The notes under the pieces: model-generated
The model's database searches: none
What the model was told of the DNA's origin: nothing
What the model saw: only the letters and a program-made list of their open reading frames with translations
NCBI RefSeq assembly: GCF_002706795.1
Contig: NZ_CP017705.1
Coordinates: 2,575,001 to 2,639,000 of the forward strand
DNA length: 64,000 nt
Origin: Brevibacillus laterosporus DSM 25
GTDB taxonomy: Bacteria > Bacillota > Bacilli > Brevibacillales > Brevibacillaceae
Direction of reading: 5' to 3'
Translations under genes and position numbers: made by a program
Shown here: piece after piece, positions 5,888-12,358 of the stretch
How the letters are laid out: each line of letters opens with the position of its first letter
Numbering within the stretch: position 1 is the first letter of the stretch

Positions 5888-8128
5888 ATGTCGGGAGCAT
5901 CCTTTTGGAAACCAAAAAAAGGGCTGGACTGGCTAGCTGCCTTGTTTTTGTTTTTCCTGTTACGTGAGTGGTTGTTACCGCTACCTTCCCTTTCAGATAC
6001 GGGGAGTATTAGTTGCTTTCTTTATCTGGTAGCGGGGATCATCTTAGTAGATATGATCTTCCGTAGTCACTGGATGGGTTTATTGATGAAAGGCATTTTA
6101 GCTATTGTCATCTTCCATGCCGCGTTTGTGGAAATTTCTTTTTTTAATCCTGAGTGGATTTCGGAAACATGGCGAGCAGTTAGTGAAGACTTTACTAAGA
6201 TATTTAATCAAGATTGGGCAAATATGAGTATTATTTCAAGAAATCTGCTGTTTTCGGGCATGATTTTAGTGTTGGTAACCCTGCTTGATTTCTTAGTATT
6301 AGAACAAAGACAAGGTTTATGGTTTGTATTTATCACCATTTCTTATCTTGCTGTATTAGACACCTTTATGCCTTTTAATAGTAGTGGAGCGATTATGCGG
6401 ACGTTGTTAATTGGCTTCATGCTAATCACAACCTTACATCTATCATCTATCCAAAAGGGATTTACCTATAGAGGAACCCAATCTGCAATTTGGAAAACGC
6501 TTGTGGTTCCGCTCATGATTATTTCACTCGCAATAGGTGTAGGATACGCGTCACCAAAGGCAGAACCCAATTGGCCTGATCCGATCGGTTTTTTGCAAGG
6601 AAAGTCTGGAATTGGAAAGAGCGACGTGATTCGTAGAGTGGGTTATGACACCAATGATAAGATGTTGGGAGGACCTTTTCAACAGGATGATACCAAGGTA
6701 TTTACCGTAACAACTAATGATAAATACTATTTGCGCGGGGATGCTAAAGATGTATATACCGGCAAAGGTTGGATAAAAAGCGATAAACAATTGGAATCAA
6801 TTGTATATCCTAAAAACTACATTTGGAATGATACGCTTTTTTCTGGATTGGAAACAAAAAAGGTCATGGCTGTTGTGCAGGCTGAGGGAGAACAGTTACC
6901 GGCTATTTTTTATCCAGGACAGCTTAAAAGTATTGAAGAGGTAAACCCAGAAAATGTGACGTTAACCTATGACACCATTTCTCAGGGGATTCTTACCTTT
7001 AATGGAGCTATGCAAAAGGATTCAAATAGTCGATCGTTTGTTGAAAGAGACGATAGCACCTTGATTCCGACGCCTGTTCAACAGTACATGGATCATTATC
7101 AGCTACAAGCTGAGATTCCAGTGATTAGTGAAAAGAAAATCATTGCGGCGGGTACCAATTATCCTAGAGAGATAGAAGAGAGGTATCTACAACTACCTAA
7201 TAGTCTCCCTGGTCGAATAAAGAAGCTAGCTGAAAAAATTACGGAAACGTCAAACAATCCATACGACAAGGCGAGGGCAATAGAGAATTATTTGCGTGAA
7301 GGAAGATATCGGTATGAAACAAAAGATGTTCCGATACCTAAGGAAGGACAAGATTTCGTAGATCAGTTTCTATTCGATACCATGAGGGGATACTGTGATC
7401 ATTTTTCAACTTCTATGGTGGTCATGCTTCGCTCAATTGATATACCTGCCCGTTGGGTAAAAGGGTTTGCTCCAGGTCAAGAGATTGGCCGTGATGCCAA
7501 CAATAATATCACCATTGAAGTAAGAAATAGAGATGCACACTCATGGGTCGAGGTTTACTTTCCAGGTAGCGGTTGGATACCGTTTGAAGCAACTGCTTCT
7601 TTTACATCTCCTCTACAAGTAAATTATGATCGCCTTTCCAATGAGTCAAGTCAGATAAATATTCCCGCTTCCACAGAGGAAAAAGAAGTGAATAAACCAA
7701 AACAAATGGACCGACTGGAAGAAGCAGATAAGCCTGTAGTGAAAACGAGTGCAGGATTCTCATGGGTTTGGCTAGGGTTAATTGGTATTTTGCTAGCAGT
7801 GGGTGTTTGGATTCTGTGGAAAAAACGTCAGGAGATGTATTTATGGTGGTTACACCGCAAAATGACACAATACGCTCAGGATGATTTTCCACGTAGATTT
7901 ACGTTGGTTCTAACGATATTTGAAAAAATGGTTTCACCCCGTCATTCTGGTGAAACATTACGCGAATATGTGAATCGCCTCCAAATTAGTGGAGATAAGC
8001 GTCAGGATTTACTTTATTTAACAACCATCTATGAAAAAATGCTATATGGCTTGAAAGAAATGGAAGGGAAAACAAGATCGTTGTGGCAGCAGACCATTGA
8101 GCGTTTAATACGCCAAATGAAACCTTGA
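5888..8128 (+). CDS. TgpA-like transglutaminase-domain membrane protein
   Basis: A large membrane protein (746 aa) with about six N-terminal membrane segments and an extracytoplasmic transglutaminase-like domain. The Cys is in RGYCDHFST, the His in NRDAHSWVEVYFPG and the Asp/Glu region in WIPFEATASF. A further membrane helix near residue 625 precedes a cytoplasmic tail. This matches the TgpA/DUF3488-transglutaminase-DUF4129 layout. A GTG at 5879 would also be in frame, but the site AGGGGG (5873-5878) sits 9 nt before the ATG at 5888, so that start was chosen. Third gene of the MoxR-DUF58 operon. The substrate is unknown. Confidence 0.88.
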   Translation: MSGASFWKPKKGLDWLAALFLFFLLREWLLPLPSLSDTGSISCFLYLVAGIILVDMIFRSHWMGLLMKGILAIVIFHAAFVEISFFNPEWISETWRAVSEDFTKIFNQDWANMSIISRNLLFSGMILVLVTLLDFLVLEQRQGLWFVFITISYLAVLDTFMPFNSSGAIMRTLLIGFMLITTLHLSSIQKGFTYRGTQSAIWKTLVVPLMIISLAIGVGYASPKAEPNWPDPIGFLQGKSGIGKSDVIRRVGYDTNDKMLGGPFQQDDTKVFTVTTNDKYYLRGDAKDVYTGKGWIKSDKQLESIVYPKNYIWNDTLFSGLETKKVMAVVQAEGEQLPAIFYPGQLKSIEEVNPENVTLTYDTISQGILTFNGAMQKDSNSRSFVERDDSTLIPTPVQQYMDHYQLQAEIPVISEKKIIAAGTNYPREIEERYLQLPNSLPGRIKKLAEKITETSNNPYDKARAIENYLREGRYRYETKDVPIPKEGQDFVDQFLFDTMRGYCDHFSTSMVVMLRSIDIPARWVKGFAPGQEIGRDANNNITIEVRNRDAHSWVEVYFPGSGWIPFEATASFTSPLQVNYDRLSNESSQINIPASTEEKEVNKPKQMDRLEEADKPVVKTSAGFSWVWLGLIGILLAVGVWILWKKRQEMYLWWLHRKMTQYAQDDFPRRFTLVLTIFEKMVSPRHSGETLREYVNRLQISGDKRQDLLYLTTIYEKMLYGLKEMEGKTRSLWQQTIERLIRQMKP

Positions 8129-8225
8129 TCATTTCCCAATCATCTGCTAGAATTTTTGACAATATGATACTTTGGTAGCAGTAAGCAGGAGAAACGGCAC
8201 TGCCTCTTTTTTGAATGACAACGTT

Positions 8226-8294
8226 AAAGACAGGGACATTTGCCCTTAGAAGATGTCAGACGATTTCATCTACGGGTAGGTGGCCTGTCTTTTT
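8226..8294 (+). promoter_or_regulatory. terminator-like structured leader upstream of guaA
   Basis: AAAGACAGG (8226-8234) pairs with CCTGTCTTT (8284-8292) and runs into a T-run. The 49-nt loop holds a second small stem, GACAT (8235-8239) with ATGTC (8253-8257). It may simply terminate the upstream operon or be an attenuator of guaA. It does not match the purine riboswitch core, and no ligand class can be named. Confidence 0.45.
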
Positions 8295-8416
8295 GATGGA
8301 ACGGGAGAAATTTTTTTCTTCATACCAAAAAAGAGAAAGGGAGATAATATCTTCAAGAACGTTTTGGACATGTCTACTGAGTGCACAAGTATACAAGGTT
8401 AAGGGAGGATCTTTCC

Positions 8417-9955
8417 GTGGAAAAGCCGTTGGAATTAGTGGTAGTAATAGATTTTGGGGGGCAATATAACCAATTGATCGCAAGACGTGTACGTGATTTA
8501 GGCGTATACAGTGAGTTGTTGCCTTTCAATACGCCAGTGGAGAAAATTAAGGAGCTTAGCCCAAAAGGGATTATTTTCTCTGGAGGACCGGCTAGTGTAT
8601 ACGAAGAAGGAGCACCGCAAATTGACCCAGCGATTTTTGACTTAGGTGTACCTATCTTGGGTATTTGCTATGGAATGCAATTAATGTCCCAAACATTGAA
8701 GGGAAAAGTAGAACGTGCCGGTAAACGTGAATACGGAAAAGCGGAAATACGTCTTGAAAACCAACATGGTCTATATAGTAACTGGGAATCTTCTGAAGTA
8801 GTATGGATGAGCCATACTGATAAAGTAGTAGAATTGCCAGAGGGCTTCGTTATCGACGCAGTGAGCGACTCTTGCCCGATTGCTGCTATCAGTCATCCAG
8901 AGCGTAATCTATATGGTGTACAGTTCCACCCAGAAGTTCGTCATACCGTAAAAGGACATGAATTTGTAAGTAACTTCTTGTTCAATATTTGTAAGTGCAC
9001 TGGCGACTGGAGCATGACTACATTTATTGAAGACAAAATCAAAGATATTCGTGAGACTGTTGGAAATAAAAACGTATTGTGTGCTTTGAGCGGCGGAGTT
9101 GATTCCTCTGTAGTAGCGGCTCTCATTCATCGTGCGATCGGTGATCAGTTAACGTGTATGTTTGTTGATCATGGTTTGTTGCGTAAAGGTGAAGCGGAAA
9201 GCGTAATGGAAACGTTCGTAGGCAAATTTGATATGAAAGTAATCAAAATTGATGCTCGTGACCGCTTCTTAAACAAATTAAAAGGTGTAACTGACCCAGA
9301 ACAAAAACGTAAGATCATCGGTAACGAATTCATCTATGTATTTGATGAAGAGGCTACTAAGCTTACGGATATGGACTTCCTAGCTCAGGGTACACTTTAT
9401 ACGGACATTGTTGAGAGTGGGACAGCTACGGCTCAAACGATTAAATCTCACCACAATGTAGGCGGTCTACCAGAAGACATGACGTTTAAGCTAATCGAGC
9501 CTTTGGACACGTTATTCAAAGACGAAGTACGTAAACTGGGTTCAGAGCTAGGCCTACCTGATGCAATTGTATGGAGACAGCCTTTCCCAGGTCCAGGTCT
9601 TGGTATTCGTGTTTTAGGCGAGATTACTGAAGAGAAGTTAGAGATTGTTCGTGAATCTGATGCTATCCTGCGTGAAGAAATTCAAAAAGCTGGTTTGGAT
9701 CGCGAAATTTGGCAATACTTCACTGCTTTGCCTGACATGAAGAGTGTAGGGGTAATGGGTGATGCACGTACGTACTCTTACACAGTAGGGATTCGTGCGG
9801 TAACATCTATCGACGGTATGACAGCCGACTGGGCTCGTATTCCATGGGATATACTAGAGAAAATCTCTGTACGTATTGTAAACGAAGTGGATAACGTAAA
9901 CCGTATTGTGTACGATGTTACTTCTAAACCACCTGCAACTATTGAGTGGGAATAG
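8417..9955 (+). CDS. guaA: GMP synthase (glutamine-hydrolysing)
   Basis: Converts XMP to GMP using ATP and glutamine, the last step of guanine nucleotide synthesis. The N-terminal class I amidotransferase has the nucleophile motif GICYGMQLM and a HPEVRHT His. The ATP-pyrophosphatase domain has the PP-loop SGGVDSSVV, and the C-terminal dimerisation domain contains [16 protein letters not shown]. Length is 512 aa, matching the family (513 in B. subtilis). An upstream ATG at 8381 is in frame, but the GTG at 8417 has the site GGGAGGAT 6 nt before it and gives the family N-terminus. Single gene, followed by a very long hairpin that overlaps the pbuG promoter. Confidence 0.97.
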
Positions 9956-9987
9956 TAAATACGTATAATTATTATTAAAATAACGTG

Positions 9988-10002
9988 AACGTTCGTGTTT
10001 TA
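9988..10002 (+). promoter_or_regulatory. PurR box upstream of pbuG
   Basis: AACGTTCGTGTTTTA matches the reverse of the Bacillus PurR box (AAAANCCGAACAAT type) and shares GTTCGTGTT with sites before purE, purC and purH. It lies just upstream of the -35 hexamer, so repressor binding would overlap polymerase binding. Confidence 0.7.
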
Positions 10003-10004
10003 TG

Positions 10005-10033
10005 TTGACAGCGTGCGATGTTCTTGTTAAACT
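10005..10033 (+). promoter_or_regulatory. sigma-A promoter of pbuG
   Basis: TTGACA (10005-10010), a 17-bp spacer and TAAACT (10028-10033). The purE promoter has a near-identical layout, TTGACG with TTGTTAAACT. Expected start of transcription is near 10040. The spacer and -10 lie inside the left arm of the long inverted repeat at 10012-10113. Confidence 0.7.
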
Positions 10034-10120
10034 TTCGTTGTAAGAAAGAAGTTCGAGTTTTTATTCGGATTTTCGACTTATAACGACTTGTTTAGCAGGA
10101 ATTATCGCACGTTTTTTTGT
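10012..10120 (+). terminator. very long imperfect hairpin plus T-run after guaA
   Basis: CGTGCGAT (10012-10019) pairs with ATCGCACG (10106-10113). The stem continues inward: GTTCTTGTTAAAC pairs with GTTTAGCAGGAAT through U-G wobbles, and CGTTGTAAG pairs with CTTATAACG. The 3' arm ends in seven T. In guaA read-through RNA this makes a stem of some 30 pairs and an intrinsic terminator. The left arm also holds the pbuG promoter spacer and -10, so a transcript starting at pbuG lacks the outer 5' arm. Confidence 0.65.
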
Positions 10121-10209
10121 TTTTACCGAATGTTATTCGTCATTATTCGAATAAAGCTTGTCTTTTTAGCAAATATGACTTGAGAGGTTACTATTAGGAG
10201 GGACAAAGG

Positions 10210-11580
10210 GTGCGTAAGTATTTTGAGTTTGATCGACATGGCACCACGTATCGTCGAGAGATTATTGCTGGTTTAACAACCTTCTTGGCAATGGCATATA
10301 TTTTAGCCGTAAACCCAAACATTTTAAGTGGGGCAGGATTGCCACCAGAATTACAGGCAAAATTCCCTCCACATGATGCCGTGTTTACTGCTACAGCACT
10401 GGCAGCGGCTATAGGTACACTTATTATGGGGATTGTCGGTAAATTACCGATCGGTCAAGCACCAGGTATGGGTTTAAATGCGTTCTTCGCCTTTACCGCA
10501 GTTCTTACCATGCAGATTCCTTGGCAACAAGCCTTGGCTGGTGTATTTGTTTCTTGTACTTTGTTCCTGATCCTATCTTTAACGGGTATTCGTTCGCAGA
10601 TTATTGATGCGATTCCGCAGAACCTAAAGAATGCTACAACAGCAGGTATCGGATTATTTATTGCTTTTATGGGTCTGAAAAATGCTGGTATTATCGTAGA
10701 TTCTCCAGCTACTCTGGTCACAATGGGACATTTAAGCTTTAAAGAAGGCATGGATGCTACTCAAATTCTTACAGTTAAAAATGCGTTGTTAGCAGTCTTT
10801 GGATTGCTTGTTACGGGGGTTTTATTAGCAAGACGCATTCACGCTGGAGTATTCGTTGGAATGTTGATCACAGCGGTTGCTGGTATGATTTTTGGAGTGG
10901 TAGAGCTTCCTTCACAAATAGTATCTGCTCCACCAAGTTTGGCTCCTACGCTTGGTGTTGCCTTACCATATTTATTAGATCCAAGTGTGATTTTTTCTCA
11001 AGGCATGTTCATAGTTGTGTTCACGTTCCTATTTGTTGATTTCTTTGATACAACCGGTACTTTGCTAGGCGTATGCAATCAGGCGGGACTTTTGAAGGAT
11101 GGTAAGCTGGAGCGTCCTGGATCAGCACTTGCTTCTGATGCTGTTGCTGGAATGGCTGGTGCGCTGTTAGGTACCTCTACAACAACAAGCTACATTGAAT
11201 CGACTGCTGGTGTGGCAGCAGGTGGTAGAACTGGTTTTACAGCGGTTGTCATTGGATTTATGTTCCTGCTGTCTCTGTTCTTCTTTCCATTACTGTCTGT
11301 TATTACTCCCGCTGTTACAGCACCTGCCCTGATTATTGTTGGTGTGTTGATGGCTAGTAGCTTACGTAACATTGAGTGGGATAAATTAGAAGAGTCGTTG
11401 CCTGCTTTCCTTACCATGCTGATGATGCCTCTATCTTCTAGCATCGCAGCTGGTATTGCTTGTGGATTCATTTTCTATCCAGTGACTAAAGCATGTAAAG
11501 GCCAAGCACGTGAGGTACACCCAGCGATGTATGTACTATTTGTCATCTTCCTGGTTTACTTCATTTGGTTCCGTGAATAG
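10210..11580 (+). CDS. pbuG: NCS2 family purine (guanine/hypoxanthine) permease
   Basis: A 456-residue integral membrane transporter of the AzgA-like NCS2 branch, which imports hypoxanthine and guanine by cation symport. It begins MRKYFEFDRHGTTYRREI and continues TTFLAMAYILAVNP, typical of PbuG. About 12 membrane segments and the loops PIGQAPGMGLNAFFAF and FVDFFDTTGTL (substrate-site helices) are seen. Start is GTG at 10210 with TAGGAGGG 7 nt upstream. A PurR box and a sigma-A promoter precede the gene, so control by PurR is likely; no purine riboswitch core is present. It stands alone between guaA and purE and ends at the hairpin near 11654. Confidence 0.93.
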   Translation: MRKYFEFDRHGTTYRREIIAGLTTFLAMAYILAVNPNILSGAGLPPELQAKFPPHDAVFTATALAAAIGTLIMGIVGKLPIGQAPGMGLNAFFAFTAVLTMQIPWQQALAGVFVSCTLFLILSLTGIRSQIIDAIPQNLKNATTAGIGLFIAFMGLKNAGIIVDSPATLVTMGHLSFKEGMDATQILTVKNALLAVFGLLVTGVLLARRIHAGVFVGMLITAVAGMIFGVVELPSQIVSAPPSLAPTLGVALPYLLDPSVIFSQGMFIVVFTFLFVDFFDTTGTLLGVCNQAGLLKDGKLERPGSALASDAVAGMAGALLGTSTTTSYIESTAGVAAGGRTGFTAVVIGFMFLLSLFFFPLLSVITPAVTAPALIIVGVLMASSLRNIEWDKLEESLPAFLTMLMMPLSSSIAAGIACGFIFYPVTKACKGQAREVHPAMYVLFVIFLVYFIWFRE

Positions 11581-11653
11581 GTTGTTTTGTCAGAGCTAGT
11601 AGCTTTGATATTTACAATATATGATTTTGGAATATCACTAGATTGTCACCATG

Positions 11654-11704
11654 AAAAAGTCTTCTTGAACTGTCTTCTTTTGAGTCAGATCGGAAGGCTT
11701 TTTC
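11654..11704 (+). terminator. intrinsic terminator after pbuG
   Basis: AAAAAGTCTTC and GGAAGGCTTTTT form a hairpin ending in T5, between pbuG and the purE control region. Confidence 0.75.
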
Positions 11705-11756
11705 TATTTTATGTGAGTAATTAGATAAAGAAGAATGAAATTTAAATATAAAACTA

Positions 11757-11814
11757 AAATGTTCGTGTTTTGTTGACGTTTTGTAATTTTTTTTGTTAAA
11801 CTGAACGTGAAATG
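11757..11814 (+). promoter_or_regulatory. purE promoter with PurR box
   Basis: The PurR box AAATGTTCGTGTTTTG (11757-11772) abuts the -35 TTGACG (11773-11778). The -10 is TTAAAC/TAAACT at 11796-11802, with a spacer of 17-18 bp. A second half-site of opposite sense, CTGAACGTGA, begins at 11801. The paired layout fits PurR control of purEKB. Confidence 0.72.
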
Positions 11815-11863
11815 ATCTTAAAAACGTAATATAACGAAAATGGAAGGTCAAGGGGGAAGCGGC

Positions 11864-12358
11864 GTGGTTGCACCGATTGTAGGAGTTATCATGGGAAGTA
11901 CTTCTGATTGGGAAACAATGAAGGAAGCTTGCCACATACTAGAGGAGATGCAGATTCCATATGAAAAGCAGGTAGTTTCTGCTCATCGTACGCCTGATCT
12001 TATGTTTACGTATGCAGAGACTGCTCAAGAGAGAGGCTTGAAGGTGATTATTGCTGGGGCCGGTGGAGCAGCTCATCTTCCGGGAATGGTAGCGGCTAAG
12101 ACCATTCTTCCTGTCATCGGTGTACCAGTAAAATCAGCCGCTTTAAACGGATTAGATTCTTTATTATCGATCGTGCAGATGCCAGGGGGCGTTCCGGTTG
12201 CTACCGTAGCGATTGGCAAGGCTGGGGCTACGAATGCTGGTTTGCTAGCAGCTCAAATCGTCGGGACGAATGACGCGGAGATAAGTCGGCGTTTAACCGA
12301 ACGAAGAGAAGCTACACGAAAAAAGGTTATGGAAGAGAGCGAGTTGCCCCATGAATAA
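11864..12358 (+). CDS. purE: N5-carboxyaminoimidazole ribonucleotide mutase
   Basis: Class I PurE, which rearranges N5-CAIR to CAIR in IMP synthesis. The motifs [19 protein letters not shown] and [13 protein letters not shown] line the active site of the family. The ORF is open from an ATG at 11840, but AGGGGGAAG (11851-11859) points to the GTG at 11864. That start gives 164 aa and the expected N-terminus ([13 protein letters not shown]). First gene of the purE-purK-purB unit; its end overlaps purK by 8 nt. Class I PurE is consistent with the presence of PurK. Confidence 0.96.

Follow-up and report, generated by a model that had tools for sequence, protein, structure and literature searches.

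A probable intrinsic terminator carrying the promoter of the next gene in its 5′ arm between guaA and pbuG of Brevibacillus laterosporus

The interval between guaA and pbuG in Brevibacillus laterosporus DSM 25 probably holds an intrinsic terminator with the pbuG promoter built into its 5′ arm, and whether a transcript terminates there would be set by the position at which it starts. The structure, the promoter, the covariation, the start-dependent folding and the absence of an aptamer were all established computationally, on the window (the whole stretch of 64,000 nucleotides that was analysed, from a genome of 5.4 Mb) and on related genomes. The constituent parts are ordinary; what is new is their arrangement, the covariation that runs through a promoter spacer, and the position of the element in the place of a riboswitch. 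Phrase searching of an open-access subset of the literature turned up neither an account of this locus nor any case of a promoter-in-terminator-arm layout, which is weak evidence of absence.

The locus and its promoter

The features of the locus, all on the plus strand, are as follows.

8381-9955, +: guaA (GMP synthase), the upstream gene, from its ORF; the start codon of this longest ORF is unlikely to be the true one
9984-9998 (approximate), +: motif resembling PurBox 2 around GAACGTTCGTGTTTT, immediately 5′ of the -35, a candidate PurR site kept upstream of pbuG across relatives
10005-10010, +: -35 TTGACA of the pbuG promoter, from sequence; common to sister species
10010-10032, +: outer 5′ arm of the terminator stem (promoter spacer and -10), from fold and covariation
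10028-10033, +: -10 TAAACT with extended TG, from sequence and comparison; TACACT in most relatives
10035-10086, +: inner hairpin, from fold and alignment; paired though its sequence has diverged in the most distant relative, G001
10040-10042, +: expected pbuG transcription start, judged from the -10 position and falling in the hairpin's 5′ half
10090-10113, +: outer 3′ arm of the terminator stem, from fold and covariation
10112-10118, +: T-run, from sequence and start scan; here RNA reading through from guaA is predicted to end
10196-10212, +: ribosome-binding site AGGAGGGA and GTG start of pbuG, from sequence
10210-11580, +: pbuG (hypoxanthine/guanine permease family), an ORF with orthologues in relatives

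The upstream gene is taken to be guaA on its recognisable GMP synthase sequence. PbuG shares 98% identity with its counterpart on a Brevibacillus laterosporus contig, and the gene that follows at 11840 is presumably purE, as recognised from its sequence. The pbuG promoter reads TTGACA-N17-TG-n-TAAACT (10005-10033) and is of a strong sigma-A type, with near-consensus -35 and -10 elements, a 17-nt spacer and conservation in relatives; the same promoter (TTGACA, TACACT) lies ahead of pbuG in family relatives. The leader that it would produce is about 170 nt long. A UC-rich stretch in the region 10155-10205, TTGTCTTTTT, could base-pair with the ribosome-binding site of pbuG, AGGAGGGACAA, in the window and in G003; in G001 and G002 this pairing is disrupted. 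A second promoter-like match, TTGAGT-16-TATAAT, is found at the 3′ end of guaA (9942-9969) and, if active, would yield a transcript of about 140 nt that stops at the hairpin.

PurR sites consist of two PurBoxes (14 bp, with a CGAA/TTCG core) separated by 16-17 bp and lying immediately 5′ of the -35, and B. subtilis pbuG is listed as a PurR-bound site (PMC8789054). The GAACGTTCGTGTTTT motif has the central TTCG in AT-rich sequence that the same paper describes (PMC8789054); when its criteria are applied by eye, the box-2-like GAACGTTCGTGTTTT is clear and box 1 is degenerate. In family relatives an upstream (A/T)ACGTTCGTATTTT motif, likewise PurR-box-like, stands beside TTGACA and TACACT. PurR may control B. 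laterosporus pbuG through this candidate site.

A long hairpin across the promoter

In plus-strand RNA, positions 10010-10113 form a hairpin of 44 pairs with a minimum free energy of -52.3 kcal/mol (fold of 10000-10130), compared with -25.4 ± 3.35 for shuffled sequence (z -8.04; 0 of 200 shuffles as stable). This is the fold that the original prediction had proposed for checking; its long stem was recovered, at a size greater than the roughly 30 pairs it had estimated. The 5′ arm is made up of segments 10010-10032, 10035-10044 and 10048-10058, and the 3′ arm of 10063-10073, 10077-10086, 10090-10101 and 10103-10113. The outer 5′ segment comprises the last base of the -35, which is a perfect one, the entire 17-nt spacer and all but one of the six bases of the extended -10, so the earlier claim that the left arm contains the spacer and -10 held. 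The stem also ends, as predicted, in seven T residues (10112-10118), followed by GTTTTT. A stable RNA hairpin with an immediate U-tract, as expected of an intrinsic terminator, is thus present at guaA-pbuG and is kept in five genomes. No further terminator-like site was detected after guaA in the scan, the only site of which lies inside guaA.

A 1.2 Mb sample of this genome (22%) was scanned for hairpins and promoters, giving 2103 terminator-like hairpins and 424 promoter-like sites. In six hairpins a -10 falls within the 5′ arm; five of these are weak (-9.8 to -19.1) and the sixth is the guaA-pbuG hairpin (-51.1), which is also the most stable of the long hairpins (>80 nt) in the sample. A promoter within the stem was rejected as a general design of the genome, a strong case elsewhere being absent from this 1.2 Mb (22%).

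Conservation and covariation

Five genomes of a genus-level clade were compared (that of the window, G001, G002, G003 and G004). The hairpin pairing is kept in all five, as is the T-run directly 3′ of the stem, and the sister folds are likewise stable relative to shuffles (z -5.7 in G002 and -6.6 in G001). The outermost ten pairs are intact in 5/5 genomes despite differences in the spacer, which begins with GCGTGCGAT in three genomes, GCATGCAAT in G002 and GTACGTAAT in G001; the 3′ arm beside the T-run alters to match each spacer variant. Over the 22 pairs of the promoter-side stem and the five genomes, 96.3% of cells are paired. Changes on both sides with pairing kept occur at six pairs (eight cells), a level reached by none of 500 shuffles (mean 2.4), while controls in which the partner was slid by 1-3 columns were 34-47% paired with 0-1 both-side-changed pairs; the covariation check suggested beforehand therefore came out in favour of the pairing. 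Of the compensated pairs, five belong to the promoter spacer and the sixth to the -10, where A-U becomes C-G in G002, the -10 of which is TACACT. In G001 the base of the stem has fewer G-C pairs and the pairing of the -10 region is bulged. As three of the five genomes are nearly identical, the covariation rests on two independent divergences. Since the promoter spacer covaries, the pairing is testable by arm swapping.

An unlikely alternative is that the hairpin serves mainly in processing or stability, with RNase III cutting the double-stranded read-through RNA or the guaA 3′ end being protected, and little termination taking place. In its favour, 44 pairs is long for a terminator, a stem of this length is sufficient for RNase III and may be cut by it, and the structure is kept in all five genomes. 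The T-run directly after the stem in 5/5 genomes and the maintenance by compensation of the outermost pairs adjoining it are a better fit to termination, though processing and termination could coexist.

The strand on which the structure is more stable provides further information. In the window the plus strand folds at -52.3 and the minus strand at -26.1; the corresponding values are -37.3 and -23.9 in G002 and -44.3 and -30.9 in G001. The difference arises because the stem contains 6-11 G-U pairs per genome. This asymmetry fits selection on plus-strand RNA rather than on a DNA palindrome or cruciform and, with a T-run on the plus side only, bears out the description of the element as one-way. 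It is accordingly improbable that the dyad is a DNA element at the promoter (an operator or cruciform, for example an extended PurR-binding site) with the RNA pairing incidental. Such an element would account for the overlap of the dyad with the -10 and start region and for the small dyad around the -10, ACCTG...CAGGT, that riboswitch-bearing Brevibacillus also have; against it, 9/49 pairs of the folded segment are G-U and would not pair in DNA, the minus strand is 13-26 kcal/mol weaker in all three lineages, and the T-run is on one side only.

Dependence of folding on the RNA start

To follow the effect of the start, the RNA 3′ end was fixed at the T-run and the mean pairing probability of the last ten bases before it was computed for different 5′ ends. 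This probability is 0.96 for starts from 9800 to 10005, 0.49 at 10015, 0.00-0.05 from 10020 to 10035, and 0.23 at 10040. G003, G004 and G001 behave in the same manner, with 0.89-1.0 for upstream starts vs 0.21-0.42 for the +1 RNA. In G002 the +1 RNA retains a weak hairpin near the T-run (0.74), and escape may thus be partial there. The two folding claims of the original prediction agree with these values: guaA read-through RNA forms the stem beside the T-run at about 0.96, and RNA from about 10040, lacking the outer left arm, forms the T-run-side stem at about 0.2.

The proposed mechanism follows from this anatomy. RNA polymerase leaving guaA would already have transcribed the whole 5′ arm; as the 3′ arm emerges, the hairpin would zip up beside the T-run and the RNA would end near 10112-10120. 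An RNA started at the pbuG promoter (+1 near 10040) would be without the outer 5′ arm, its 3′ arm would be largely unpaired, and polymerase would read on into pbuG. On this start-dependent anatomy, RNA reading through from guaA should end at 10112-10120, and RNA started at about 10040 should continue into pbuG; termination at the T-run and a start near 10040 are both likely on sequence grounds. The two genes would be uncoupled, with pbuG relying on its own promoter and the PurR-box-like motif upstream. The element had been called a compact insulator. Insulation is apt for the pbuG message and inapt for the promoter itself, because polymerase from guaA has still crossed the promoter by the time it reaches the T-run, about 80 nt beyond the -10; termination downstream of the promoter leaves occlusion by read-through polymerase unprevented. 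Nor is the element particularly compact, as about 90 nt more of leader follow the hairpin.

There is little probability that the +1 leader is instead an unrecognised ligand-responsive attenuator standing in for the guanine riboswitch and terminating its own transcripts under some condition. Relatives do have a riboswitch at this position, the leader is about 170 nt long, and two further downstream pairings are possible, including that with the ribosome-binding site in the window. Without the promoter-side arm, however, no stem adjoins the T-run except weakly in G002; the interior sequence differs between G000/G002 and G001, unlike an aptamer, and the leader fold is unexceptional (z -0.24 for 10040-10130 and -1.63 for 10040-10215). 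A repeat or mobile-element origin was discarded, as the genome has no second copy and only chance matches of 14-32 bases, and so was another Rfam family at the locus, for which only sub-threshold chance matches were returned (MtlS, 22.4 bits vs a cut-off of 80).

The place of a riboswitch

In 14 of the 20 relatives' loci scanned, a purine riboswitch (RF00167) lies between the promoter and pbuG; in the same 20 loci it is absent from four of the same genus, from G005 and from G007, the last of which has what appears by eye to be a damaged aptamer remnant. The RF00167 covariance model gave no gathering-level match in the window and none at E<=10 in 9900-12000, and a hidden purine riboswitch at pbuG was rejected on the latter result. 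Two purine riboswitches are found at other loci of the B. laterosporus genome, where they presumably precede adenine deaminase and xpt-pbuX, judging by sequence recognition.

The parsimonious reading is that the aptamer disappeared from the clade while the promoter and a T-run stayed, and that a stem with the promoter as its 5′ arm then evolved; from the distribution, the hairpin probably replaced the riboswitch and not the reverse. A stem with its 5′ arm upstream of +1 would spare pbuG, whereas an ordinary unconditional terminator there would silence it. The fuller proposal has about an even chance of being correct: that in one clade the riboswitch was replaced by a start-site-dependent terminator laid across the downstream promoter, with spacer and arm co-evolving, forming an RNA "diode" between tandem genes that possibly grew from a smaller promoter-spanning dyad of the riboswitch-bearing relatives.

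Those riboswitch-bearing Brevibacillus (L014-L038) have the dyad ACCTG...CAGGT over the -10 and start, just before the aptamer, and it is sometimes lengthened by TTCTTCC/GGAAGAA; it is too invariant for covariation. In G005 (L033, another genus), also without the pbuG riboswitch, pairing is possible between the spacer TTTCTTGC and TTGCAAGAA immediately upstream of the ribosome-binding site, with no T-run. The guaA leader (8125-8300) is also without a purine aptamer in the window genome, G002, G003 and G004, where it keeps a promoter that aligns (TTGATC/TAGAAT, 8125-8153) together with a hairpin resembling an expression platform (AAAGACxGGGAC...T-run, 8207-8295); the aptamer is present in the guaA leader of G001 (C5:145670) and G007.

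Comparison with known systems

If the proposed reading is true, guaA-pbuG would be a clean natural case in which one DNA stops one transcript and launches another by RNA start alone, a route by which a gene may lose a riboswitch and yet stay insulated from the gene before it, and a model for building one-way insulation into synthetic operons. As in any intrinsic (Rho-independent) terminator, a stable hairpin and then a T-run follow the stop codon of a gene on the same strand; unlike the usual case, the stem is unusually long and its 5′ arm doubles as the promoter from which the next gene would be transcribed. The purine riboswitch RF00167 of sister Brevibacillus occupies the same place between promoter and pbuG and likewise has a terminator ahead of the gene, whereas the guaA-pbuG hairpin has no aptamer and termination would follow the RNA start site, not guanine.

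Self-protection of the IS10 (Tn10) transposase mRNA is a close parallel: the outer arm of a read-through RNA pairs with a downstream arm, hiding the ribosome-binding site, and RNA from the internal promoter escapes. At guaA-pbuG, too, the outer arm would be present only in read-through RNA, but here the pairing would end transcription. The choice at phage lambda int/sib depends on antitermination and RNase III, whereas at guaA-pbuG a promoter inside the stem would decide. The likeness to lambda int/sib retroregulation, which is mentioned in PMC3890552, is that RNAs of different history form different structures at one terminator.
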